Positions 48,842 to 64,000 of a stretch of 64,000 nt of DNA are shown piece after piece. Source of the DNA: an uncultured Planktomarina sp. Lineage in GTDB: Bacteria > Pseudomonadota > Alphaproteobacteria > Rhodobacterales > Rhodobacteraceae. The notes under the pieces are model-generated. The model worked only from the letters and a program-made list of their open reading frames with translations, ran no database searches and was not told where the DNA came from. A program made the translations under genes and the position numbers. Numbering within the stretch: position 1 is the stretch's first letter; every line of letters begins with the position of its first letter. The DNA lies in the NCBI GenBank assembly GCA_905182455.1, contig CAJJBJ010000001.1:38501-102500 (forward strand). Direction: 5' to 3'.

Positions 48842-50296
48842 TCAGTAGGGCGCTTCCAGCTCGCTCATCCGCACATAGACAGATTTGAGTTGAGAATAGT
48901 GATTAATCGCAGCCTTTGAATTTTCGCGGCCCACCCCAGACAGCTTTGTCCCACCAAACGGCGCCTCAACAGGGGCGTCGTTATAGGTGTTGATGTAGCA
49001 CGTGCCGGCTTCAAGAGCCTTAACCATCCGATGCGCCCGAGGCAGGTTGAGGGTGAAGACCCCCGCCGCCAGACCATATTGCGTATCATTGGCACGAGCT
49101 AAGACTTCAGCCTCATCTTCAAATTCCAAGACAGACATGACGGGACCGAAAATCTCATCGCGGGCAATCGACATATCATCGGTCACATCTGTAAATATCG
49201 CAGGGGTGAGCCAAAATCCGGGCCGCTCCAACCGCTCGCCACCACAAACTAAACGCGCACCTTCCGCTTTGCCCTTAGCGATAAAGCCTTCCACAATATC
49301 GCGCTGGCGTTGCGATACCATCGGACCGAAATTCGTGGCCTCATCCATTGGATCACCCAAAATAGCCGTGCCAACGCGCTCTGCCAGGCGAGCTAGAAAA
49401 GCGGGTTTGATGCCCTTTTGCACAAATACCCTAGTTCCGTTGGAGCAAATTTGCCCCGAAGAATAGAAATTCGCCAAGATGGCACCGCTGACGGCATCTT
49501 CCAGATTGGCGTCATCAAAAATGATCAGAGGGGATTTACCGCCCAATTCCATGGTGACACTTCGCATGCCCTCAGCCGCCGCCGCATAGACCTTGCGGCC
49601 AGTCGGCAATGAGCCGGTCAAAGACACTTTATCCACGCGCGGATCAGTAACCAAGGCCGCGCCCACGTCTCCCAATCCCTGCACCACGTTATAAAGCCCC
49701 GCAGGCAAGCCCGCCGTGTGCAGGATCTCCGCAACTTTAAGCGCGCAGAGCGGTGTAGTCTCGGAGGGTTTAAATACCATAGCGTTGCCACAGGCCAAAG
49801 CCGGTGCAGCCTTCCATGCGGCGATCTGAGTGGGGTAATTCCAAGCACCTATACCGACACAAACCCCCAAAGGTTCCCGAATTGTATAGATGAAATCTTC
49901 ACCAAACTGCACATGCTCGCCCGTCAAACTACCGGCCAAACTGCCGAAATATTCCAAGGCATCGGCCGCGGAGGTGGCATCAGCCACCATGGTTTCCTGC
50001 AACGGTTTGCCGGTGTCATAGGTTTCCAACTCGGACAAAGCTCTATTTTGCGCGCGCATCATATCAGAGGCACGGCGCAAAATCCGCCCACGCTCGGTTC
50101 CAGTGAGGGCAGCCCAAGCGGGTTGTGCGGCTTTTGCGGCTGATAGGGCGGCTTCCAAAATCGCAGGGGTGGCACTGTACACCTGCCCGATGACCTCACC
50201 TGTCGCGGGGTAAATGACGTCAATGACGTATCCCGCCGTATCTTCAACATATGCGCCGTTGATGAAATGGCTTGCGGTTGGTTTCGGGTCGATCAT
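48842..50296 (-). CDS. betB: Betaine-aldehyde dehydrogenase
   Basis: A 484-residue NAD(P)-dependent aldehyde dehydrogenase of the BetB type, which oxidises betaine aldehyde to glycine betaine; related enzymes use trimethylaminobutyraldehyde. Catalytic Cys284 is in [10 protein letters not shown], the general-base Glu in [10 protein letters not shown], and the cofactor stretch is [20 protein letters not shown]. The C-terminal [20 protein letters not shown] is typical of BetB. No choline dehydrogenase (betA) or betI is adjacent. Its ATG overlaps the stop of the upstream DMT transporter (ATGA), so the two are translationally coupled. Confidence 0.88.
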
Positions 50297-51183
50297 AGCC
50301 CAGTCCTTTCAAGTCTTCGCTTCAGTTGGGCTTCTCGCAATGTGATGTAGAGAACTGCCCCAATGATTGTAACTCCCCCCAATATAACGAAGGCGTCAAT
50401 GTTTTCACCAAACAACAAATAGCCAATGGCAACGGCCCAAATCAACTGTAGAAATCCAACAGGTTGCGTCACCGTGAGCGGTGCACATCCAAAGGCAAAA
50501 GTCATTGAGTAATGCCCTGCAACAGCAAAAGTGGCCACAGCAAACAACGTGACAACCTCAAAGCTTGTTGGTGTAATCCAGACCGGAATTGTGAGCGGGA
50601 TTAAACCAATCGTGACGCCAATCGAAAGAAGCGCCACCACCATGTCGGCGCTCGCCAGGTCCGTCAGCCGCTTGGCCATCAGATAGCTGACACCAAAGCA
50701 CAGTGTGGTGCCCAGCATGGCCAGATGCCCCATGGACACCTCACGCAATCCAGGTCGCAAAATCACTAAGACCCCAATGATAGCAACAACAATCGCCAAA
50801 CCGCGGCGCAACGCCAAACGTTCCCCCAGGATAAAAATGGCGCCCAGCGTCACAAAAATTGGGGTGAGGTAGCCCATGGCTGAAACCTCAGCGACCGGGA
50901 TGCGGGCCATGGCATAAAACCAGAGGGTCACGGCAAAGGTGTGCAAAAAAGCGCGCCCTGCCCCCAGCTTGATCACATGCACAGACAGACCTTCACGAAA
51001 CAGGCTGCGTGCCACAGGCAGCAAAAACACCAAGCCCAGCGCATAGCGCAAGAAAGCGCTTTCTGCGGCAGGCAGACGGGTGCCTACATATTTCACGCCG
51101 ACATAGACGCCGATGAAACAGAGCCCTGAAAGCCCCATCCACAATGCGCCCGCTATTGGCCTATCCGGTTGTCCTATTGTCAT
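50293..51183 (-). CDS. DMT superfamily (EamA) transporter
   Basis: A 296-residue membrane protein with ten predicted helices in two EamA repeats ([20 protein letters not shown] and [20 protein letters not shown] open the two halves). Substrate unknown. It is upstream of and overlaps betB by ATGA, so import or export of a quaternary amine or its aldehyde precursor is a reasonable guess. The ATG at 51183 is used; a TTG two codons earlier is possible. It follows the TRAP large permease gene in the same direction after about 50 bp. Confidence 0.82.
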
Positions 51184-51236
51184 AGACAATGGCTTTCACG
51201 CCCCAGTGGGAGAGGCAAGAAAAAACGATCTTAAAT

Positions 51237-52637
51237 CTAGCCAACAAGTGATGGAAGCCAAAGAACAATTCCCGGGAAAGCCACAAGTAAAGCAATTGTG
51301 ACGCCATCGGCCAGAAAGAACGGTGTTACGCCTTTGAACACGTCTTGCACAGTCAGATCATCACGAACCCCAGCCACCACAAAGCAGTTGAGGCCAATGG
51401 GTGGGGTGATCAAACAAAACTCCGCCATTTTCACCACCAAAATCCCAAACCAAATTGCGCACATAGTGCCATTCATGCCAAACGCACTGTCGGCGGCGGT
51501 CACATATTCGCCGCCGTTCAATGCCATGACCGCAGGATAGACCACCGGCAGGGTCAAAAGCAGCATGCCAATCGCATCCATGAACATTCCGAGCACCGCA
51601 TAGGCCAGCAAGATGCAAATCAAAATCAGCATCGGCGCCATATCAAGACTTGTGATCCAGTCGGAGAATACGCCCGGAAGATCGGCAAAGCCCAAAAAGC
51701 GCACATAGATCAAGACGCCCCAGATGATTGAGAAGATCATCACGGTGAGCTTGGCCGTTTCCAGCAAGGCATCCTTAAGCTGTCCCCAGCGCATGCCACG
51801 ATACAAAGCCATAAGGAATACTATAAACGCCCCAACAGCCCCGCCCTCAGTGGGTGTGCCCCAGGCATCTCCGAAAGGATTGTAGACAAAAAAGATGATG
51901 ATCACGACCACAGCCACAATAGGCAAAGCCGCAGGCAAGGCTTCAAATCGTTGTTTCCAAGTAAAGCCACGCACCGGCGGACCCACATTCTTGAAAACCA
52001 CTGCTATACCGATGATCAGACCAGCATAAACCAAAGCTGAAAAGGCCCCCGGAATAAACCCAGCCAGCAACAACTTGCCCACGTCTTGCTCAACAATGAT
52101 TGCATAGATCACCAAAATGGCTGAGGGCGGGATGAGCGAGGCTAGAGTTCCACCTGCCGCAACAACGCCCGCTGCAAACTGTTTGTTGTATCCAATTTTC
52201 AACATCTCCGGAATCGCGATCCGTGCGAAAACCGCCGCAGTTGCGACCGACGCACCAGATACGGCTGCAAAGCCTGCGGTTGCAAACACGGTCGACACGG
52301 CCAAACCGCCCGGCACCCATGCGATCCAACGCTTGGCAGCCTCAAACAGCGCGGTTGTCAGCTTGGCGTAATAGGCGAGGTACCCAATCAAGATGAAAGT
52401 TGGAATCAAACTCAGAGCTTGGGATGAAATTTTTGAATGCGGCACTTGGCCTGCGATCTTAACACTGATTGTCAGCGCCTTGCCCAGCTTGTCGGGATCA
52501 TAGTCAAAGCCATTCCAGCGGAGCCAGAACAGACCGACAAAACCTGCCATCCCAGCCGCAAAGGCCACGCGCATACCAATAAAAACCATGACCAACATGC
52601 CACCGGTGGTCCATAGACCAATTGCGATAGGATCCAT
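51237..52637 (-). CDS. TRAP transporter large permease (DctM-like)
   Basis: A 466-residue DctM-family permease with about twelve to thirteen helices. Typical features are SLIPTFILIGYLAYYAKLTT-like loops, the conserved GGTLASLIPPSAILVIYAII, and the C-terminal NCFVVAGVRDDLTVQDVFKG that follows LITPPIGL. It forms the sodium-driven translocation channel of a TRAP importer with the DctQ subunit, whose stop it overlaps. Substrate unknown; the adjacent LacI regulator and the sulfonate-type operon make an organic acid or sulfonate plausible. Confidence 0.9.
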   Translation of the reverse strand: MDPIAIGLWTTGGMLVMVFIGMRVAFAAGMAGFVGLFWLRWNGFDYDPDKLGKALTISVKIAGQVPHSKISSQALSLIPTFILIGYLAYYAKLTTALFEAAKRWIAWVPGGLAVSTVFATAGFAAVSGASVATAAVFARIAIPEMLKIGYNKQFAAGVVAAGGTLASLIPPSAILVIYAIIVEQDVGKLLLAGFIPGAFSALVYAGLIIGIAVVFKNVGPPVRGFTWKQRFEALPAALPIVAVVVIIIFFVYNPFGDAWGTPTEGGAVGAFIVFLMALYRGMRWGQLKDALLETAKLTVMIFSIIWGVLIYVRFLGFADLPGVFSDWITSLDMAPMLILICILLAYAVLGMFMDAIGMLLLTLPVVYPAVMALNGGEYVTAADSAFGMNGTMCAIWFGILVVKMAEFCLITPPIGLNCFVVAGVRDDLTVQDVFKGVTPFFLADGVTIALLVAFPGIVLWLPSLVG

Positions 52638-53266
52638 TAGTCTTGCTCCGCCAAAAGGGCCGCTTCAGCCATGGCCTGTTCTTCAATACTCATAATCAAT
52701 GGCACTGCTACAGGATGCTCCAAATCTAAGACCATAGCCCTGCCATACCCAATGGCTTGCAAAACTAACCTCACCGACAACAGTCCAAAGGCCACAGGGA
52801 TCAAAAGCTTTGAGGGCCACATAGGAATACCTATATCGATAGAGCTATCACGGCTCCACAAGGGCTTGGAAAAATCAAAACTGCGATCAAAATGGGCCCA
52901 AGAGCCCCAGATCAGTGCGATCATCACCACCAGCATCAGGGTAACTGTAAAAAACTCCATCGCCCAAAGCATACGCCCACGCATTTTGCCAATGATCATG
53001 TCCATACGGATATGACCGCCATAGCGCTGCACATAAGATACGCCCATAAAGGCAATCACCGGCATGGCTGCTTCGATGTAGTCTACATAGCCCGACAGCG
53101 GATGATTGAAAAACTTGCGGCCAGACACAGAATAGGCTGCCAAAAACATCAACGAAAAGACAGCGAGCCCACTCATCAACGCGAAAATGCGCTCAAGCGG
53201 CAGTAAGGCGCGATCGGCGCGGCTCAGCCATGAATTATCTTGGAGCACAGAGGAAGATGAGGACAC
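52637..53266 (-). CDS. TRAP transporter small permease (DctQ-like)
   Basis: A 209-residue DctQ-type protein with four transmembrane helices (FALMSGLAVFSLMFLAAYSV, PVIAFMGVSYVQRYG, EFFTVTLMLVVMIALIWGSW and LLIPVAFGLLSVRLVLQAIG). It is larger than the usual small subunit. The likely start is GTG at 53266, with AAAGG about 7 nt before it. It lies between the binding protein gene and the large permease gene, which it overlaps by 1 bp. Confidence 0.87.
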   Translation of the reverse strand: MSSSSSVLQDNSWLSRADRALLPLERIFALMSGLAVFSLMFLAAYSVSGRKFFNHPLSGYVDYIEAAMPVIAFMGVSYVQRYGGHIRMDMIIGKMRGRMLWAMEFFTVTLMLVVMIALIWGSWAHFDRSFDFSKPLWSRDSSIDIGIPMWPSKLLIPVAFGLLSVRLVLQAIGYGRAMVLDLEHPVAVPLIMSIEEQAMAEAALLAEQD

Positions 53267-53282
53267 GTGTATGCCTTTCGGA

Positions 53283-53325
53283 AAAATAAAATAGAACGCC
53301 CACCCCCATTGTTAGGAGGCGGGCG
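53283..53325 (-). terminator. Hairpin with T-rich tail between dctP and dctQ
   Basis: On the minus strand CGCCCGCC (53325-53318) pairs with 53304-53297 (one G-U), followed by TTCTATTTTATTTTT. In TRAP operons such an element after the binding-protein gene lets that subunit be made in excess over the membrane subunits. Confidence 0.65.
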
Positions 53326-53333
53326 CCACGGGT

Positions 53334-54350
53334 TTAGTTACCCTTACGAGTGTTTTCCAAAGTGGACATCACAAGATCAAACAACTCTTGGCCTGGAATG
53401 CCTTGAGCTTCCATGTCAGCAATCCATGCCGCACGGATCGGATCAGCAGCAGTCGAACGGAATGCAGCCAATTCAGCATCGCTAATCTCTACTTTTTTGA
53501 CGCCTTTTTCAGCCAGAACAGAGTCCCAGCGCTTCAAAAGTTCTCCATAGTTGGCAAGGTAATGCACGATGGACTCGTCTACTGACTCGTTCAAAACTGT
53601 GCGGTGCTCATCTGACAGTGACTCATAAGCATCAATATTGACCACAACAGGGCAGTTTACAGTGCCCGGGTTAAGGTTTGCAGTCCACCAATCGGCACGG
53701 TTGATTGTGCCATAAGACAGGTGCGCGTGCTGCGCGAAGGCCACTGTGTCAACGACACCAGATTCCATCGCTTGATAGGCTTCCGTCGCTGTCACAGATG
53801 TAGGTACACTGCCCACAGCTGCAAAAGCTTTGCCCAAGCCACCGGTTGCACGAACGCGCATACCTTCAAAGTCAGCCAGCTTGGTGCGAGGTTCACCGGT
53901 ACCAACGATGTTGTACTGTGGCATTGGTGATGTCATCAAAAGACGCGCATTCCACTGTGCCATTTCTTCAACAGCTGCAGGGTGTGCGTAGACAGCATGG
54001 CTAACAGCCACTTCTTCCGCTAGATTTGCAACGCCCAAGAATGGCAATTCCAAAACAGTGACAACCCGATTTTTGTCGGGGTGGTAGCCGGCACAGAATT
54101 GCGCCATCTCAAAGGCACCGATAGAAATGCCATCAAGGTTTTCTCGGTTCTTTGACAGACCACCATAGCTTACATTCATGGTAAACTCACCATTGGTCTT
54201 TGCAGACACAAGCTCAGCAAGCTTTTCAACATGCTCCGTAAAGGCGCGACGTTTGCCCCAAACCGATACATTCCATTCAGTAGCAATGGCTTCGCCTGCA
54301 AACGCAACAGCAAGAGCCGCTACAGCAGTTTTGGTTAAAAAAGTTCTCAT
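53334..54350 (-). CDS. TRAP transporter substrate-binding protein (DctP-like)
   Basis: A 338-residue periplasmic protein with a signal peptide (MRTFLTKTAVAALAVAFAGE, cleavage after AIA near residue 23). DctP-family features include MNVSYGGLSKNRENLDGISI and the substrate-gripping loop FEGMRVRATGGLGKAFAAVG with the conserved Arg, followed by MESGVVDTVAFAQHAHLSYG. GGGAGGATACC precedes the ATG. The ligand is unknown. It is the first gene of the TRAP operon and lies 151 bp after the LacI gene, in the same direction. Confidence 0.9.
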   Translation of the reverse strand: MRTFLTKTAVAALAVAFAGEAIATEWNVSVWGKRRAFTEHVEKLAELVSAKTNGEFTMNVSYGGLSKNRENLDGISIGAFEMAQFCAGYHPDKNRVVTVLELPFLGVANLAEEVAVSHAVYAHPAAVEEMAQWNARLLMTSPMPQYNIVGTGEPRTKLADFEGMRVRATGGLGKAFAAVGSVPTSVTATEAYQAMESGVVDTVAFAQHAHLSYGTINRADWWTANLNPGTVNCPVVVNIDAYESLSDEHRTVLNESVDESIVHYLANYGELLKRWDSVLAEKGVKKVEISDAELAAFRSTAADPIRAAWIADMEAQGIPGQELFDLVMSTLENTRKGN

Positions 54351-54501: not shown

Positions 54502-55539
54502 TCATACGGCACGACAGGTTGCGCGGGCCGACAATCGAATATCACATTTGGTCCTGATCAAGCTTGCCACCTTGTTCGGGGGCTCAGACTGCGCAATCAG
54601 TTGGCACATTTCTCGCCCCGCAAGCCCCCCAATTTCATGTGCTGGAAAATGTATGGTGGTAAGGGCCGGCTCCATTTCTTTACTGCCTTTGAAATCCCCA
54701 ATTCCCATAACGGATACATCCTCAGGCACCTTCAAGCCGCGCTTTAACAGGGCATATATCACCCCCTGAGCGATCACATCATTGCCACAAAGCACCGCCG
54801 ACGGACACTCGGGCAAATCGAACAGGGCCCCGCAAGCCTCCTTGGCCTCTGCAATATTGTAGGGCGATTGGATAGTCCATTCCTCGGGTGGCAGTGCACC
54901 TTGGTCCTGCAACACCTCCACTGCCCCCCCCAATCGTCCTCGTGCTCGATCATTCCCAATGGTAACTGGAAACACCAAAGCAATGCGCCGATGTCCCAGC
55001 TCCACCAAATGCTCAGCAGCCATCCGCCCAGCGTCGTAGTTTTTGGCCCCCACACAAGAGATCCGACTGTCAGCCTCATAATTCCAAATTGAAATCACTG
55101 GAACGGCTTGCTGGTCCAACAGCTGAAACGTCGGCTCCGAATGGTCCAAGCCGATCAGCGCCACCCCATCCACGCGATGCTCCAAAAACTTCCGCAGCAC
55201 CGCATACTCACGGTCCAAATCGAACCCATGGCTGGCAATCAACAGGGTGAAACCAGCGTGATCCACAGCATCTGAAAAACTTTGAATTACCTCAGCAAAA
55301 ATGGCGTTATCAATCGTCGGGACGATCAAACCAATCGTACCGCTACGGCGGCCATGCATGGTTTGAGCTGCGCGATTGCGAATATACCCCAAAGCCTGCA
55401 CCGCTCGTTCAATCTTTTTGCGAGTCGCGGGATTCACTAAATCTGGATGATTAAAGCTTCGTGAAACCGTTGATATCGATACCCGAGCACGGCGTGCTAC
55501 ATCCACAATATCAGCTTTTCCCCCTTGTTTTAATGACAT
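54502..55539 (-). CDS. LacI family transcriptional regulator (SauR-like by context)
   Basis: A 345-residue LacI/GalR-type repressor. The HTH and hinge are at residues 8-60 (DIVDVARRARVSISTVSRSF, ATRKKIERAVQALGYIRNRA), followed by a periplasmic-binding-protein-like effector domain (SGTIGLIVPTIDNAIFAEVI, PSAVLCGNDVIAQGVIYALL). It is divergent from the tctA-tctB-tctC-sauS-sauT operon across 86 bp that contain a LacI-type operator, and is followed by the TRAP operon. In Cupriavidus necator the sulfoacetate genes are next to a LacI-type regulator, SauR, so the same role is inferred. The effector is not known. Confidence 0.87.
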   Translation of the reverse strand: MSLKQGGKADIVDVARRARVSISTVSRSFNHPDLVNPATRKKIERAVQALGYIRNRAAQTMHGRRSGTIGLIVPTIDNAIFAEVIQSFSDAVDHAGFTLLIASHGFDLDREYAVLRKFLEHRVDGVALIGLDHSEPTFQLLDQQAVPVISIWNYEADSRISCVGAKNYDAGRMAAEHLVELGHRRIALVFPVTIGNDRARGRLGGAVEVLQDQGALPPEEWTIQSPYNIAEAKEACGALFDLPECPSAVLCGNDVIAQGVIYALLKRGLKVPEDVSVMGIGDFKGSKEMEPALTTIHFPAHEIGGLAGREMCQLIAQSEPPNKVASLIRTKCDIRLSARATCRAV

Positions 55540-55564
55540 TTTTATAAGTTACCTTCAGATTTTA

Positions 55565-55578
55565 TGAAAACATTTGCA
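55565..55578. promoter_or_regulatory. LacI-type operator in the divergent lacI / tctA promoter
   Basis: TGAAAACATTTGCA fits the general LacI-family consensus TGnAAnCGnTTnCA at every fixed position except the central CG, which is CA. It lies 26 bp from the regulator's start and 47 bp from tctA. A further TTTTCAT at 55585-55591 mirrors the ATGAAAA of this site. Confidence 0.55.
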
Positions 55579-55625
55579 TTACTATTTTCATGGCCTAGTC
55601 TGACAAGTCAAGATAAAGTCAAAAC

Positions 55626-57134
55626 ATGGGATCGATGATGGAGTTTCTCTATTACTTTGATGAGGTATTCACCCTCTGGGCTTTCAGCATGCTGCTGTTG
55701 GGCACTGTCTTTGGGTTAATCCTAGGGGCGACCCCCGGCCTGTCCCCCACAATGGCCGTGGCTTTGGCTATCCCCTTCACCTTCAAGATGGAACCTGCGC
55801 ATGGGTTGATCTTGTTGGGCGCGCTTTACACCTCCACCGTGGCGGGCGGTGCTGTGAGTGCTATTTTACTTAAAATTCCTGGTGCGCCAGCGAATATCGC
55901 CACCACCCTAGACGGGCATGCCATGGCCAAGAATGGCGATGGAAAGCGCGCTTTGCAGCTGTCGTTCCTCGCATCCTTGTTTGGCGGGGTTGCAGGTGTG
56001 CTACTGCTGATTTTCACCACGCCGATCTTGGCAAAATGGGCTTTGGTCTTCGGGCCCAGCGAAAGCTTTTGGATTGCCATTCTCGGGGTAACGATCATTG
56101 GCACCTTGGGCAGCACCTCGGTGATCAAGGGCTTGCTGGCCGGCTGCATTGGGCTTTGGATATCCACAATTGGTTTTGACGATATTCTCGGAACCCAGCG
56201 CTTTATATTCCACTCTTCATTGGCGGGCGGCATCAACATCATCCCCGCATTGATCGGTCTCTTCGCCATCCCACAAGTGATCGCCATGTTTGCCAAGGGC
56301 CGCTCGCATGAGGATATGGAGGTTTTGGAAATCAAACCCCACCCACTACGCAAAGCTATTCGCGAAGTGGCGAGCAGCAGGAGGGCGTTGGGCATTGGCA
56401 CGGCGGTTGGCTCCATGATCGGTTTAATTCCCGGTGTAGGGGGGCAAATCGCGGGCCTTGTCGCCTATGATCAAACCCGCAATTTTAGCCCAGAACGCAC
56501 AAAGTTTGGCACTGGTCACCCCGAGGGCATAATCGCGGCTGAAGCAGCCAACAATGCGATGGTTGGCCCATCTTTGGTACCACTACTCACGCTCTCGATC
56601 CCCGGAAGCCCTACGGCCGCAGTTTTGCTCGGTGGGTTGATCATCCATGGTATTTTCCCGGGCCCAAACATTTTTAGAGATTACCCCCAAGTGGTCTGGC
56701 CATTCATCAATTCAATGTTAATTGGCCAAGTGTTAATGTGTGTGTTTGGCCTGATGATCGCTGGAGCCGCCGCACATGTGGCGCGAGTCCCCCGCTCTGT
56801 TATGGCGGCTGTGGTTCTGGCCTTAGCCGTGTTTGGCAGCTATTCAGTACAGCTGTCGATGGATGATGTCTTTGTCATGCTGATCTTAGGAACAGGGATG
56901 TACTTCCTAGAACGCTACGGCTATTCCGCAGCGCCTCTGGTTTTGGGCCTCATCCTAGGGCCAATAGCTGAAGGCAACTTTGTTGAGGGCGCCATGATTG
57001 CGGCTGCCCAAAACGGCATTGGTACCTATTTCTTCACCGGCACACTCAATCTAACAATGATCGCGATTGTCGTTGGGTCGATCGCTTATTCTGTCTGGCT
57101 CGAGTTAAAAAACCGCCAAGTGGGGGGTGTATAA
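55626..57134 (+). CDS. tctA: Tripartite tricarboxylate transporter large permease (TctA)
   Basis: A 502-residue TctA-family membrane protein with about eleven to twelve helices. Conserved segments are LGATPGLSPTMAVALAIPFT near the N-terminus and its internal repeat GLIPGVGGQIAGLVAYDQTR, with SIPGSPTAAVLLGGLIIHGI after. It forms the channel of a secondary importer that works with a soluble binding protein. Three in-frame ATGs lie within 13 bp (55626, 55635, 55638); none has an ideal ribosome site. It leads an operon into sauS and sauT, so the cargo is probably sulfoacetate rather than a tricarboxylate. Its stop overlaps tctB by one base. Confidence 0.9.
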   Translation: MGSMMEFLYYFDEVFTLWAFSMLLLGTVFGLILGATPGLSPTMAVALAIPFTFKMEPAHGLILLGALYTSTVAGGAVSAILLKIPGAPANIATTLDGHAMAKNGDGKRALQLSFLASLFGGVAGVLLLIFTTPILAKWALVFGPSESFWIAILGVTIIGTLGSTSVIKGLLAGCIGLWISTIGFDDILGTQRFIFHSSLAGGINIIPALIGLFAIPQVIAMFAKGRSHEDMEVLEIKPHPLRKAIREVASSRRALGIGTAVGSMIGLIPGVGGQIAGLVAYDQTRNFSPERTKFGTGHPEGIIAAEAANNAMVGPSLVPLLTLSIPGSPTAAVLLGGLIIHGIFPGPNIFRDYPQVVWPFINSMLIGQVLMCVFGLMIAGAAAHVARVPRSVMAAVVLALAVFGSYSVQLSMDDVFVMLILGTGMYFLERYGYSAAPLVLGLILGPIAEGNFVEGAMIAAAQNGIGTYFFTGTLNLTMIAIVVGSIAYSVWLELKNRQVGGV

Positions 57135-57589
57135 TGCAGAAATATCAACACGCCATTCCCGCCGGACTCATCGCTTTACTGGGCCTTTGGGTTGCATATG
57201 TGAGCTACACTCAATCACCAGCGGCAGCCTTTGCCTTTCCCCGCCTGGTCTCAGCCGTCTTTGTTGTCCTTGCTGTTTGGACCTTTGTCAAAGCCCTACG
57301 CGAGGGGGCCGATCAAGATGGCGGCTTCACCCGCACCGAAATTTTCAAGATTGCGCCAGGCATGATCTTGTCTGCTGCCTATGTTTTTTGGGGCGCTAAG
57401 TTCTTTGGCTTTTACACCGGCACCACAATCGCATTTTTTATACTGCTCAGTTTGTATGACCCAGCCGATCACCAGCTCGCAAAATCATGGGTCAAACGCG
57501 TCATCATCACGGCTGGCTTCATGGCCGTAATGTACTGTCTCTTCGCATTGATCTTAAACGTGTACACACCGCGAGAGATTTGGTCCTGA
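57134..57589 (+). CDS. tctB: Tripartite tricarboxylate transporter small permease (TctB)
   Basis: A 151-residue TctB-family protein with four transmembrane helices (AGLIALLGLWVAYVSYTQSP, LVSAVFVVLAVWTFVKAL, GMILSAAYVFWGAKFFGFYT, VIITAGFMAVMYCLFALIL). It supports TctA. The ATG overlaps the tctA stop by one base behind a GGGGGG-rich ribosome site. Confidence 0.87.
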   Translation: MQKYQHAIPAGLIALLGLWVAYVSYTQSPAAAFAFPRLVSAVFVVLAVWTFVKALREGADQDGGFTRTEIFKIAPGMILSAAYVFWGAKFFGFYTGTTIAFFILLSLYDPADHQLAKSWVKRVIITAGFMAVMYCLFALILNVYTPREIWS

Positions 57590-57634
57590 ACTGTAAGTAC
57601 AGCAGGACATCACAAACCCTAGGGAGGATTGAAC

Positions 57635-58603
57635 ATGAAAAAACTACTCGCAGGTGCAGCCATTGCACTGACGACCTTGGCGGGCATTGCCCAAGCTGAC
57701 GGCCACGCAAATTACCCCGACCGCCCCATCATGCTGATGGTAAGCTATGGTGCAGGCGGTGCTACGGACTTCCAAGCCCGGATCGTGACTATGACCGCAG
57801 GGAACGACGATGCTTTGGGCATGCCCATCGCCATCATCAACAAACCTGGCGCAGGTGGTCGTGTCGGCTGGAATTGGTTGGCAAGCCAAGCCGAAGCAGA
57901 CGGCTATACCATGGGCGCCTACAACATCCCGCATTTCATCGCACAATCTGTTAAAGGTGGCGTTGACTACTCCGCTGCCAGCTTTGAGCCCATCGCCAAC
58001 TGGGGCGCAGACCCAGCTGTCTTCGTTGTCGCTGCAGATAGTGAATTTAATTCCATGGCCGATGTTGTTACATGGGCCAAGGCAAACCCAGGCAAACTTA
58101 CATTTTCTGGCGCAGGCCTATTTGTGGGACACCACATCGCTGCGTTGCAAATCGAAAAGGCGGCTGGCGTTAAAATGGCCTATATCCCTAATAAATCAGG
58201 CGGCTCTGGCGCTATGAAAGCCGTGATTGCGGGTGACGTTATGGCCGGCGTGAACAACCTGTCTGATGCTTTCCGCGCACGCGCTGCTGGCACAGTTAAG
58301 ATCTTGGGCGTCGCAGATTTGGAGCGCAACTCGTTCATGGAAGATGTTCCAACAATGATGGAACAAGGTCTTAATGTGGACAATGCTTCGGTTAACTTCC
58401 GCGGTGTTATGGTCCCCAAGGGCACGCCACAGGGGGTGATTGATAAGCTCGCTGCGGCAGTTCCAGCCATGTTTGCTAACAGCCGTGTTGCCGGCAAAAT
58501 GAAAGCTGGTGGTTCACCGATGCATATCATGACCCGTGATGAGGTTTTAGCCATGTGGGCCGCCCGTGAAAAGACACTAAAAGATCTGCTCGCAGGACTG
58601 TAA
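57635..58603 (+). CDS. tctC: Tripartite tricarboxylate transporter substrate-binding protein (TctC)
   Basis: A 322-residue periplasmic binding protein of the Bug/TctC family. It has a signal peptide (MKKLLAGAAIALTTLAGIAQ, cleavage about residue 21), then YPDRPIMLMVSYGAGGATDF and the pocket motif NKPGAGGRVGWNWLASQ, both typical of the family. GGGAGG precedes the ATG. As the first soluble partner in the operon it should define the substrate; adjacency to sauS/sauT suggests sulfoacetate or another small sulfonate. A 9-bp hairpin follows the gene. Confidence 0.9.
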   Translation: MKKLLAGAAIALTTLAGIAQADGHANYPDRPIMLMVSYGAGGATDFQARIVTMTAGNDDALGMPIAIINKPGAGGRVGWNWLASQAEADGYTMGAYNIPHFIAQSVKGGVDYSAASFEPIANWGADPAVFVVAADSEFNSMADVVTWAKANPGKLTFSGAGLFVGHHIAALQIEKAAGVKMAYIPNKSGGSGAMKAVIAGDVMAGVNNLSDAFRARAAGTVKILGVADLERNSFMEDVPTMMEQGLNVDNASVNFRGVMVPKGTPQGVIDKLAAAVPAMFANSRVAGKMKAGGSPMHIMTRDEVLAMWAAREKTLKDLLAGL

Positions 58604-58615
58604 GAGCATAAATGC

Positions 58616-58639
58616 GGTGGGGGCTTGCGGGCCCCCACC
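58616..58639 (+). terminator. Hairpin between tctC and sauS
   Basis: GGTGGGGGC (58616-58624) pairs perfectly with 58631-58639 over a 6-nt loop, 13 bp after the tctC stop. No U-tract follows, so it more likely protects the 3' end of the tctC message or partly blocks read-through than ends transcription completely. Confidence 0.55.
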
Positions 58640-58664
58640 TCTCCCAAACGAACGGAATTCTCCT

Positions 58665-60068
58665 ATGACAACCCCTGATGATCTTACTCAAGTAGACCTT
58701 GTGATTGCCCGTGCCCGCAAAGCCCAATTGGCGTTTGAGGCGCATGGTAGCCAGGCACGTTACGATCAAGCAGCACAAGCGGTTGGCTGGGCTATCATGG
58801 AGCCGGCACGCAATCGCAGCTTGGCCGAATTGTCAGTACAGACCACCGGATTGGGTAATGTCGCCGATAAAATCACAAAAAATCATCGCAAAACCCTCGG
58901 ACTGCTGCGCGATATAGCTGACGCTAAAACCTTTGGCGTTGTCTTGGATGATGCCAGTACTGGGATCACTGAAATTGCTCGCCCAATTGGGGTTGTGGGT
59001 GCTGTTGTGCCTTCAACCAATCCAGCGGCCACTCCAGCAAACAATATCATCAATGCGTTGAAGGGTGGCAATGCCATTGTGCTATCGCCCTCACCCAAAG
59101 GTATTCCAGCCTGTGCGCTGCTGCTGGGTTATATCTATGATGAGTTTGATAAACTGGGTTTGGATCATGATCTGGTCCAGATGGTGCCCGCCCCTGGCTC
59201 TAAAGCCAAGACGCAGCGGATGCTTGAGACCACAGATTTGGTTATTGTCACCGGCAGCCAAGACAACGTGCGCCGAGCTTACACCTGCGGAACGCCAGCC
59301 ATTGGGGTCGGTGCTGGTAATGTAACTGTGATCGTGGATGAAACCGCTGATCTTGCGGGTGCTGCGTCCAAAATCACCGCCTCCAAGACCTTCGACAACG
59401 CCACATCCTGCTCGTCAGAAAATGCGCTAGTAGTTGTAGATGCCATTTATGATGCCTTCATTTCTGCCATGGCCGCAGAAGGCGGCTGCTTAGTGCGGGA
59501 CGAAGCACCCATCATCGCCAAGCTTTGGCCAAATGGCCACCTGAACCGCGCCGTGATCGCCCAGGATGCCGATGTTATGCTTGAAGCCCTGAATATGGCG
59601 GACAGTGTTCCGCAGGGGACAAAGTTTCTCGCGGTTGAAACCTTGGGCATTGGTCCGGATCATCCCCTCTCGGGTGAAAAACTGTCACGTATTGTGGCGC
59701 TTTACCGGGCCAAAGATTTTGCCGATGCCAAGGCCATTACATCGCGCATATTGAGCCACCAAGGCGCGGGGCATTCAGTTGGCCTTCACTCAACTCTTGA
59801 TGCCCGCGCGCTGGAATTGGGCCGCGAGGTACCGACCTGCCGCGTGATCGTCAATCAAGCCCATTGCTTCGCCACTGGAGGCGCGTTTAATAACGGACTG
59901 CCATTCTCTCTTTCGATGGGCTGCGGCAGCTGGGGCGGAAATTCGATAGATGGCAATCTCAACTGGACCCATTTCATACAGACCACTAAAATTGCGCGTG
60001 AGATTCCAGCCCACGAGCCAGCTGTTGAAGATATTTTTGCGGAATATTGGGCTGCGGCTGGTAAATGA
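58665..60068 (+). CDS. sauS: Acylating sulfoacetaldehyde dehydrogenase (SauS)
   Basis: A 467-residue CoA-acylating aldehyde dehydrogenase. The AdhE/EutE-like N-terminal domain has PIGVVGAVVPSTNPAATPAN and KGGNAIVLSPSPKG; the catalytic Cys249 lies in DNATSCSSENALVVVD; the C-terminus has SHQGAGHSVGLHST and the MGCGSWGGNSIDGNLNWTHF segment typical of this clade. SauS reduces sulfoacetyl-CoA to sulfoacetaldehyde, which Xsc then cleaves with phosphate to acetyl phosphate and sulfite. The assignment rests on family resemblance and on the adjoining AMP-forming ligase, LacI regulator and importer. The ATG at 58665 begins the conserved sequence and the stop overlaps sauT by ATGA. Confidence 0.82.
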   Translation: MTTPDDLTQVDLVIARARKAQLAFEAHGSQARYDQAAQAVGWAIMEPARNRSLAELSVQTTGLGNVADKITKNHRKTLGLLRDIADAKTFGVVLDDASTGITEIARPIGVVGAVVPSTNPAATPANNIINALKGGNAIVLSPSPKGIPACALLLGYIYDEFDKLGLDHDLVQMVPAPGSKAKTQRMLETTDLVIVTGSQDNVRRAYTCGTPAIGVGAGNVTVIVDETADLAGAASKITASKTFDNATSCSSENALVVVDAIYDAFISAMAAEGGCLVRDEAPIIAKLWPNGHLNRAVIAQDADVMLEALNMADSVPQGTKFLAVETLGIGPDHPLSGEKLSRIVALYRAKDFADAKAITSRILSHQGAGHSVGLHSTLDARALELGREVPTCRVIVNQAHCFATGGAFNNGLPFSLSMGCGSWGGNSIDGNLNWTHFIQTTKIAREIPAHEPAVEDIFAEYWAAAGK

Positions 60069-61591
60069 CAATTTTTGACACAGCCCCCCCCAAAGGCACA
60101 GTGCGTGATTGGCTAGACAGCCAAGCTGAAGTTGGTGGCGCGGCGATTGCCTACAAGTTTACAGATGGCACAGCTCCCCTGTCTTGGTGTGATATGCGAG
60201 ATCGCGCACGTAACATGGCACGATATCTCACTGAATTGGGACTGACCAAAGGTGAAAGTCTCGCAGTTATGATGCCCAACGGGAAACCTGCACTTGAGGC
60301 GCTCTTTGCCAGTCTCTATGGCGGATTTCGGGTCACAATGATTAATCTTGCTGCGGGCAATGACGCCATCCGCTATGCGCTTGAACATTCCGAGGCGCGT
60401 TATGCTTTTGTAGGCAAGGCTCAACAGGATCAATTCAGCGAGACGCGGTCCAATCTGGTCGCAGCCCTCCCGGATATCCCAAGTGAAACACGCCTTGCGC
60501 AATTGCACTCCCTAGACGCCGGTGACGATGCCTTGCTTATGTACACATCAGGCACCACAGGTCGCCCAAAGGGCGTCGTGCACAGCCATAGCAGCCTTCT
60601 CGCAGGAGGATGGACGACCGCAACGGCACATGCCCTAACGCCAGCAGACTGCGGCTATTGCGTTCTACCAATCTGCCACATCAACGGGCTTTGCGTCAGT
60701 GTTATGGGCAGCCTTATTTCCCAAAGTCAACTTTTGGTTGCGCCAAAATTTTCAGCCAGTCGATTTTGGAGCGACATAGATACAGGGGCCGCCACTTGGT
60801 TTTCGGTCGTCCCTACAATCATTTCGCACCTACTCCATGGCGCAAAAGACCCCAACGAAAGCGTTAAAGCGCGTTTACGCTTTGGCAGATCCGCCAGCTC
60901 AGCTTTGGCTCCTGACGTGCAAACAGCCTTTGAGGCTAGGTTCGATGTACCGATCGTAGAAACCATGGGCATGACGGAAACGGCGGCGCAAATGCTATCA
61001 AATCCACTACCGCCGGGCTTGCGTAAAATTGGTTCGCCCGGCCTAGCTCTTGGGAATGAGGTGGCAATCCTAAGGCAAGACCTCTCCCTTGCTGATTCTG
61101 ATGAGCAGGGTGAGATCGCAATTCGTGGCCCAAATGTAATGAAGGAATACCTGAAGAACCCAGCTGCCACACAGGCTGCCTTTACCCCAGATGGATGGTT
61201 ATTGTCCGGTGACTTGGGCCACAAGGACACGGATGGCTACGTCTATGTAACCGGCCGCCTGAAAGAGTTGATTATCAAGGGCGGCGAAAACATCGCGCCC
61301 CGAGAAGTTGATGAGGCCCTCTACGCCCATGCAGATGTGGTTGAGGCCGCGGCATTTGCACGGCCCTGCAGCACATACGGCGAACGCGTGGAGGCTGCGG
61401 TTACCCTGAAACCGGGCAGCACGCTTACGTCCGAGGACTTGATCAAAATATGTATTGCAAGGCTTGGGGTTTTTAAGGCGCCTGATTACGTACATTTAAT
61501 AGGTGAGCTACCCAAAGGACCCTCTGGGAAAATTCAACGTTTGAAGCTGGCCGAAATTGTAAAGATCTACGCCACCACCATGCCTGAGTAA
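60065..61591 (+). CDS. sauT: AMP-forming sulfoacetate-CoA ligase (SauT)
   Basis: A 508-residue ANL-superfamily acyl-CoA synthetase. The AMP-binding P-loop YTSGTTGRPKGVVHSH, the A5-like VETMGMTETAAQM, the hinge GDLGHKDTDGYVYVTGRLKE with IIKGGENIAPREVDEAL, and the adenylation lysine in PKGPSGKIQRLKL are all present. In the sulfoacetate pathway SauT makes sulfoacetyl-CoA from sulfoacetate, ATP and CoA, the substrate of SauS. The start overlaps the sauS stop (ATGA), so the two enzymes are made together. Acting on sulfoacetate is inferred from the pair; the motifs alone show only an acyl-CoA ligase. Confidence 0.8.
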   Translation: MTIFDTAPPKGTVRDWLDSQAEVGGAAIAYKFTDGTAPLSWCDMRDRARNMARYLTELGLTKGESLAVMMPNGKPALEALFASLYGGFRVTMINLAAGNDAIRYALEHSEARYAFVGKAQQDQFSETRSNLVAALPDIPSETRLAQLHSLDAGDDALLMYTSGTTGRPKGVVHSHSSLLAGGWTTATAHALTPADCGYCVLPICHINGLCVSVMGSLISQSQLLVAPKFSASRFWSDIDTGAATWFSVVPTIISHLLHGAKDPNESVKARLRFGRSASSALAPDVQTAFEARFDVPIVETMGMTETAAQMLSNPLPPGLRKIGSPGLALGNEVAILRQDLSLADSDEQGEIAIRGPNVMKEYLKNPAATQAAFTPDGWLLSGDLGHKDTDGYVYVTGRLKELIIKGGENIAPREVDEALYAHADVVEAAAFARPCSTYGERVEAAVTLKPGSTLTSEDLIKICIARLGVFKAPDYVHLIGELPKGPSGKIQRLKLAEIVKIYATTMPE

Positions 61592-62101: not shown

Positions 62102-62239
62102 GATCTATCTAGGATTGGCGATGACCTACTCTCCCACAACTTAAGCTGCAGTACCATCGGCGCGACCATGCTTAACTGCCGAGTTCGGGATGGGATCGGG
62201 TGTTTCATTGGCGCTATGATCACCAAACCAAGATAGATC
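62102..62239 (-). repeat. Inverted repeat flanking 5S rRNA (processing stem)
   Basis: GATCTATCT (62102-62110) and its exact complement (62231-62239) flank the 5S gene and extend its terminal helix. They would form the double-stranded stalk cut by RNases when 5S rRNA is released from the precursor. Confidence 0.7.
62114..62228 (-). rRNA. rrf: 5S ribosomal RNA
   Basis: On the minus strand the sequence has the bacterial 5S pattern: CCCGATCCCATCCCGAACTC in the loop B/C region, AGTTAAGC, then GGTACTGC and GGGAGAGTAGGTC near the 3' end, with the ends pairing (TTGGTGATC... / ...ATCGCCAA). Length about 115 nt. The boundaries are estimated to within a few bases. It is the last gene of the operon, 138 bp after 23S. 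Confidence 0.95.
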
Positions 62240-62365
62240 TTAGCCTGATCGGGTTTTGAGGCCCATTTCATAGTCAGAGAGTTCCAAGTCAAATACGCTT
62301 ATGCGGCGTTTATTATTGTGTATGGCTTTCGGTCTAGTATTTGGCTGTGTCTGCCTTCTACTGGA

Positions 62366-64000
<1,635 letters not shown>

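Follow-up and report, generated by a model that had tools for sequence, protein, structure and literature searches.

Organization of the locus

We analyzed a stretch of 64,000 nucleotides (the window; G000:C1:38501-102500) from the genome of an uncultured Planktomarina sp., which comprises 2.12 Mb and is 95.8% complete. Within it, a gene for a LacI-family regulator is divergent from five consecutive genes, tctA, tctB, tctC, sauS and sauT, which we read as a predicted operon for the uptake and activation of sulfoacetate (Table 1). An earlier note, made from the letters alone, had described this arrangement, and its reading frames are right to the base, as is the ATGA at 60065-60068 that is common to the stop codon of sauS and the start codon of sauT. 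The tctA and tctB genes overlap by one base. The open reading frame (ORF) of tctC opens at TTG 57629, the ATG at 57635, two codons in, being the likelier start; sauS starts at the ATG given in Table 1, and its mechanically delimited ORF begins at GTG 58617. All three subunits, TctA, TctB and TctC, exceed the respective Pfam gathering scores, and the genes thus encode a complete tripartite tricarboxylate transporter (TTT) system; no match to a model of the major facilitator superfamily (MFS), to which the importer SauU belongs, was found among the six gene products.

Table 1. Features of the predicted sulfoacetate operon, in coordinates of the window
Feature	Position	Strand	Evidence
LacI-family regulator (SauR-like)	54502-55539	-	Pfam LacI 54.1 bits (gathering 27), Peripla_BP_3 99.4
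Conserved 28-bp site ATGAAAACATTTGCATTACTATTTTCAT, probable LacI operator	55564-55591	+	kept between LacI and operon
TctA, TTT importer large membrane subunit	55626-57134	+	PF01970 438.6 bits, cut-off 28.9
TctB, TTT small membrane subunit	57134-57589	+	PF07331 55.5 bits, cut-off 29.1
TctC, periplasmic binding protein, probably of sulfoacetate	57629-58603	+	PF03401 126.4 bits, gathering 27
SauS, CoA-acylating sulfoacetaldehyde dehydrogenase	58665-60068	+	NF047625 675.9 bits (cut-off 600); Aldedh 80.2 (23)
SauT, predicted AMP-forming sulfoacetate--CoA ligase	60065-61591	+	Pfam AMP-binding 223.2 (29.9)

The same layout, with LacI on the minus strand divergent from TctA-TctB-TctC-SauS, recurs in 28 of the 58 named loci, and therefore the gene arrangement is not due to chance; in a 29th such locus, L057, the LacI and SauS matches are weaker. 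Two culturable relatives also carry this operon, Roseovarius litoreus DSM 28249 (L008) and Litoreibacter halocynthiae DSM 29467 (L037). The nearest relatives of SauS include proteins of a Rhodobacteraceae locus (L004, 85% identity) and of an uncultured Planktomarina metagenome-assembled genome (MAG; L005, 82%). In the latter, the SauT match is split in two (L005 5543-6228), perhaps by a frame break or an assembly error.

As for the neighboring genes of the window, a minus-strand block at 48842-54350 encodes a tripartite ATP-independent periplasmic (TRAP) importer (dctPQM), a permease resembling EamA, and betaine aldehyde dehydrogenase, which scores 768.6 bits over a cut-off of 593. A 5S and a partial 23S rRNA gene lie just past sauT, also on the minus strand (62113-64000).

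Identity of SauS and SauT

The aldehyde dehydrogenase was called SauS in the earlier note, and the product exceeds the cut-off of the NCBI curated equivalog for this enzyme (Table 1). In place of the characterized proteins of Cupriavidus necator, we used this model and two burkholderial operons for comparison. For SauT, none of the 25 NCBIfam models shown reaches its cut-off. We therefore rely on a phylogenetic tree of 39 ligases, which is midpoint-rooted, contains several long branches and has outgroups taken solely from plasmids, relatives and the own genome. The candidates came from 19 of the 58 named loci, nine plasmid loci and ten loci of the own genome; ORFs shorter than 380 amino acids, BLAST matches of 300 columns or fewer, L119 (the window's own gene) and L115 of the own genome were dropped. 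This tree supersedes an earlier SauT tree without outgroups, in which L080, L009 and SauT pieces of up to 380 columns had been left out.

The window SauT falls within a set of 23 alphaproteobacterial ligases adjacent to SauS, with support of 100/100. A wider group of 26 ligases (support 100/97) combines these 23, two burkholderial SauS-adjacent ligases and the ligase of locus L122; the own genome yielded nine further AMP-ligases, and the eight of them that are in the tree lie outside this group. A membership in the malonyl-CoA group, which the earlier note had named as the possible contrary outcome, is not what we find: the ligase clusters with the SauS-adjacent ligases (in a tree whose sequences include no named malonate or oxalate ligase), and it scores 255.3 bits with the malonyl-CoA synthase model NF005702, compared to the cut-off of 558. 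Matches to SauT at 1e-60 were found in 14 of 72,556 plasmid records, and SauS adjoins the ligase gene in 11 of these 14. Several roseobacter sau operons sit on plasmids, and on a deltaproteobacterial plasmid (L122 1501-5509) a ligase of the SauT clade stands beside genes annotated as a sulfonate ATP-binding cassette (ABC) importer.

Genes for the downstream steps

It was remarked in the earlier note that the window contains no xsc; indeed, the only Xsc above the cut-off in this genome is encoded on another contig, G000:C4 (914 bits, cut-off 676.4). The search of the rest of the genome also detected pta, which lies 5 bp downstream of xsc (TIGR00651, 353.5 versus 311.2 bits). After pta there follow genes for a molybdopterin oxidoreductase, an alpha/beta-hydrolase-like ORF (assigned by eye), a 4Fe-4S protein and a DmsC-type protein. 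Together, these genes resemble SoeABC, and a TauE-type gene lies farther along. On the other side, about 6.5 kb from xsc, there is an aminotransferase gene (L099 2353-3741; PRK07678, 457.9 bits, below the cut-off of 488), which may supply Xsc with taurine. Because of this possible taurine aminotransferase, Xsc may also serve taurine, and we rejected the notion that it acts on sulfoacetate alone. No match to TauA, the binding protein of the taurine ABC importer, was found in the own genome. A MocR gene beside TauE was considered as TauR; this is unsupported, since the gene passes the PdxR model (343.2 versus 320).

We scored SauS, Xsc and TctC in 394 genomes of the window's family; four candidates per genome were scored for SauS, three for Xsc and up to five for TctC, and absences and counts are bounded accordingly. 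SauS is above the cut-off in 51 genomes. Xsc (E values up to 1e-150) is found in 49 of these 51 genomes versus 199 of the 343 others (Fisher p = 5.6e-9, a test that takes genomes as independent, which they are not); at 1e-150, Xsc is found in 248 genomes altogether, and in three of them it scores below the curated cut-off. None of the 14 control genomes is above the cut-off for SauS, and none for Xsc. A draw over the phylum yielded SauS above the cut-off in six of 398 genomes, four of them from the window's family. The two sets of genes are also found in proximity: sauST is located approximately 3.5-5.3 kb from xsc in Mesorhizobium (L030) and on the Paracoccus plasmids L104 and L125.

The importer

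TctC of the window is the single TctC match in its genome. Orthologues (69-100% identity) are present in 39 of the 394 family genomes, all 39 being genomes with SauS, and each of the 39 adjoins SauS on the same strand at a distance of 73-164 bp (two of these matches, G032 and G158, are partial). Because of this complete linkage, the importer looks dedicated to the sulfoacetate pathway; judging from the adjacency, the cargo of TctC is probably sulfoacetate.

Among the 12 SauS genomes without a TctC orthologue, nine have another TTT adjacent, either upstream (G045, G390, G176, G240, G224, G059 and G014) or downstream of sauT (G137 and G287). TctA lies some kb off on the opposite strand in G183 and G181, and the 11 kb inspected of G136 revealed no TctA. 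No relative of the L030 MFS importer was found in the stretches of these 12 genomes. Altogether, TTT genes neighbor 48 of the 51 sauS genes of the family sample, and the view implied in the earlier note, that TTT is an unusual occupant of the MFS slot, does not survive: in this family it is the MFS importer of the C. necator type that is the exception. Operons of the MFS type are those of L030, L103, L104 and L125. A plasmid of Sulfitobacter alexandrii (L126 5838-13103) carries LacI-SauS-SauT with a third TTT, in the order TctC-TctB-TctA, downstream.

A conserved site between LacI and the operon

In 34 of the loci that we examined, LacI is divergent from TctA or SauS. The 28-bp sequence ATGAAAACRTTTGCANNACTATTTTCAT, with up to three mismatches, is present in the intergenic region that separates LacI from the first operon gene in 33 of these 34 loci, as well as in the window, and it is diverged in L057. 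A scan of 1,338,004 bases (the window and the loci, up to five mismatches) returned a single site for each locus and no others. When the whole own genome was searched with the 15-base core, there was one perfect match, in the operon, and one with a single mismatch, at C2:693289; the control pattern gave none. The same LacI and the same site are found where the importer is MFS (L030, L104 and L125) or a different TTT (L126, L138 and L139), and such retention across importer types would be expected for the operator of a sulfoacetate regulator. We infer that the site is probably the LacI operator. The operons of G045, G390, G176, G240 and G224 combine sauT with a different TTT that lies upstream; in the stretches inspected, they showed neither a full match to LacI nor the site. 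We also considered xsc as a member of the LacI regulon and rejected it, the core search having revealed no match near xsc; as the sole perfect match in the genome is in the operon, xsc is probably under other control.

Probable operon replacement and varied activation

The sample includes a single genome of the same genus, G045, which consists of 3,288,122 bases in one contig. On either side of the operon, it is collinear with the window: on the left through the genes for betaine aldehyde dehydrogenase, EamA and DctMQP (76.6% over 5958 bp), and on the right through a small gene (71.1% over 339 bp) and rRNA genes (94.9% over 1936 bp). The slot between them holds a C-terminal fragment matching LacI residues 257-342 (L128 860-1117) and an operon sauT-sauS-tctA'-tctB'-tctC' (L128 6870-12900), which is inverted compared to that of the window and includes a different TTT; two TauE-type genes (assigned by eye) are also present. 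The SauS and SauT proteins of the two genomes are 67% and 59% identical, respectively. We infer that in G045 one sulfoacetate operon was replaced by another and part of LacI was left behind, although the order of events is itself a reconstruction from these sequences.

The activating enzyme varies as well. In 19 loci, many of them from Hyphomicrobiales, SauC-like genes are found after or near SauS, and two representatives belong to the SucCD type, which is ADP-forming. In a Thalassospiraceae MAG (L016 3214-6125), a two-subunit CoA-transferase takes the place of SauT or SauCD between SauS (695.8 bits) and xsc, an arrangement that occurs in none of the other loci examined. It should be noted that this locus also carries a 3-hydroxyacyl-CoA dehydrogenase gene, and the CoA-transferase is for this reason only a candidate for the activation of sulfoacetate. 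It is conceivable, and we propose it tentatively, that sulfoacetate operons are an exchangeable cassette, in which SauS is constant, while the importer and the activating enzyme are swapped, in the genus of the window at the same site. The importers would then comprise three TTT types (distinguished by pairwise identity) or MFS, and the activators would be SauT, SauCD and the CoA-transferase of L016.

Proposed pathway and alternative explanations

The operon is likely to serve sulfoacetate catabolism under the control of LacI, and we put the probability of this reading at roughly 0.86. Sulfoacetate would be captured in the periplasm by TctC and brought into the cell by TctAB. The AMP-forming SauT would then convert it to sulfoacetyl-CoA, which SauS would reduce to sulfoacetaldehyde with NAD(P)H. 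Xsc, encoded on the other contig, would yield acetyl phosphate and sulfite from sulfoacetaldehyde and phosphate, Pta would convert acetyl phosphate to acetyl-CoA, and sulfite would be removed by the SoeABC-like sulfite dehydrogenase and/or the TauE-type exporter. Bound to the 28-bp site, LacI would repress the operon in the absence of its effector, which may be the substrate itself, the CoA ester or the aldehyde. The uptake and activation of sulfoacetate, as suggested in the earlier note, thus largely hold, given the SauS score, the ligase clade and the presence of both xsc and pta in the genome.

Several points weigh against this interpretation. The assignment is made from sequence; for SauT there is no curated model, and the SauT-clade ligase of L122 was seen without SauS alongside. 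The named ligands of the solved relatives of TctC are other acids (terephthalate). The association between Xsc and SauS disregards phylogeny, and two of the 51 SauS genomes (86% and 93% complete) lack Xsc. In addition, xsc is outside the operon, has no copy of the 28-bp site near it by the core search and has the possible taurine aminotransferase in its vicinity; the presence of Xsc is, therefore, no proof of sulfoacetate use.

The operon might instead act on a different small dianion, for instance oxalate or malonate, in which case the ligase would form oxalyl- or malonyl-CoA and the dehydrogenase would produce glyoxylate or malonate semialdehyde. The solved structures nearest to SauT are oxalate--CoA ligases (273.8 bits), followed by o-succinylbenzoate and malonyl-CoA ligases, which would fit a small dianionic acid without naming which, and many carboxylates are carried by TTT systems. 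Conversely, SauS exceeds its curated cut-off, Xsc is found in proximity to SauS and co-occurs with it, and SauT is far under the malonyl-CoA synthase cut-off and clusters with the SauS-adjacent ligases (no named oxalate--CoA ligase being in the tree); we consider this explanation unlikely. Even less credible is a flux in the reverse direction, with taurine-derived sulfoacetaldehyde oxidized to sulfoacetate, which is then exported. The SqwD/SqwKL pair of the sulfo-TK variant works in this way, according to PMC12890257, and the possible taurine aminotransferase is close to xsc; however, the ligase is ADP-forming in that pair and AMP-forming in the window. TTT systems work in the direction of import, the Xsc of the own genome can use the aldehyde, and the search for TauA was negative. 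Finally, LacI could belong to the minus-strand block of TRAP, EamA and betaine aldehyde dehydrogenase genes, given that the TRAP genes are downstream of LacI on the same strand, in L004 too, but this is the least plausible option, since L004 is the only one of the 28 LacI/TctABC-SauS loci with TRAP beside LacI (the contigs of L005, L009, L013 and L017 end too near LacI to tell), which assigns LacI to tct-sau, and the site stands between LacI and sauS even where TctABC does not intervene.

Relation to known systems and significance

The sulfoacetate operon proposed here resembles sauRSTU of C. necator H16 (Weinitschke 2010), which likewise includes a LacI-type regulator, SauS and SauT and proceeds via sulfoacetyl-CoA and sulfoacetaldehyde. 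The regulator stands beside sauST in both, as noted earlier; in the window, LacI is divergent, tctABC lies between it and sauS, and the complete TTT is in the place of the MFS importer SauU. The burkholderial stand-in from Caballeronia (L103) has an IclR regulator and MFS, and its SauS and SauT are 53% and 39% identical to those of the window. In Bilophila wadsworthia (sauSCD and SauXYZ; Liu 2023), SauS is accompanied by TTT, as in the window; in contrast, activation is by the ADP-forming SauCD, and sulfoacetaldehyde is directed to isethionate and IseG rather than Xsc (PMC12625764 and PMC12890257, the latter of which reviews SauCD/SauS and the reverse-running SqwD/SqwKL).

The combination of sauST with TTT is already in print. 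According to PMC12625764 (2025), the dominant sponge symbionts OTU4 and OTU1 (operational taxonomic units) have sauST clusters with TTT, described there as hybrids between the type of C. necator and that of Bilophila; sauST and sauSCD occur in 4 and 3, respectively, of 99 bins that are not sponge-associated. Likened by gene content, this is the same set of SauS, SauT and TTT as in the window, which is a well-supported further example, and for which LacI, the conserved site, xsc-pta and the sulfite genes have been placed in addition. The portion of PMC7057948 that was available merely cites the C. necator sulfoacetate work. Our literature search, with most subscription papers outside its coverage, returned no further title about this operon. 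Two observations are new: in the same-genus genome, the slot is occupied by a sau operon of different construction, with a LacI fragment next to it, and a single relative (L016) pairs SauS with a CoA-transferase beside xsc. If its proposed role is true, the latter would represent a third route of sulfoacetate activation, of which the accessible parts of PMC12625764 and PMC12890257 make no mention.

With the conserved 28-bp site, regulation can be tested directly in operons that differ in their importers. TTT genes are mostly annotated as tricarboxylate importers. From the linkage described here, one TTT lineage seems to be dedicated to a sulfonate, so that sulfoacetate use may become readable from roseobacter genomes and metatranscriptomes.

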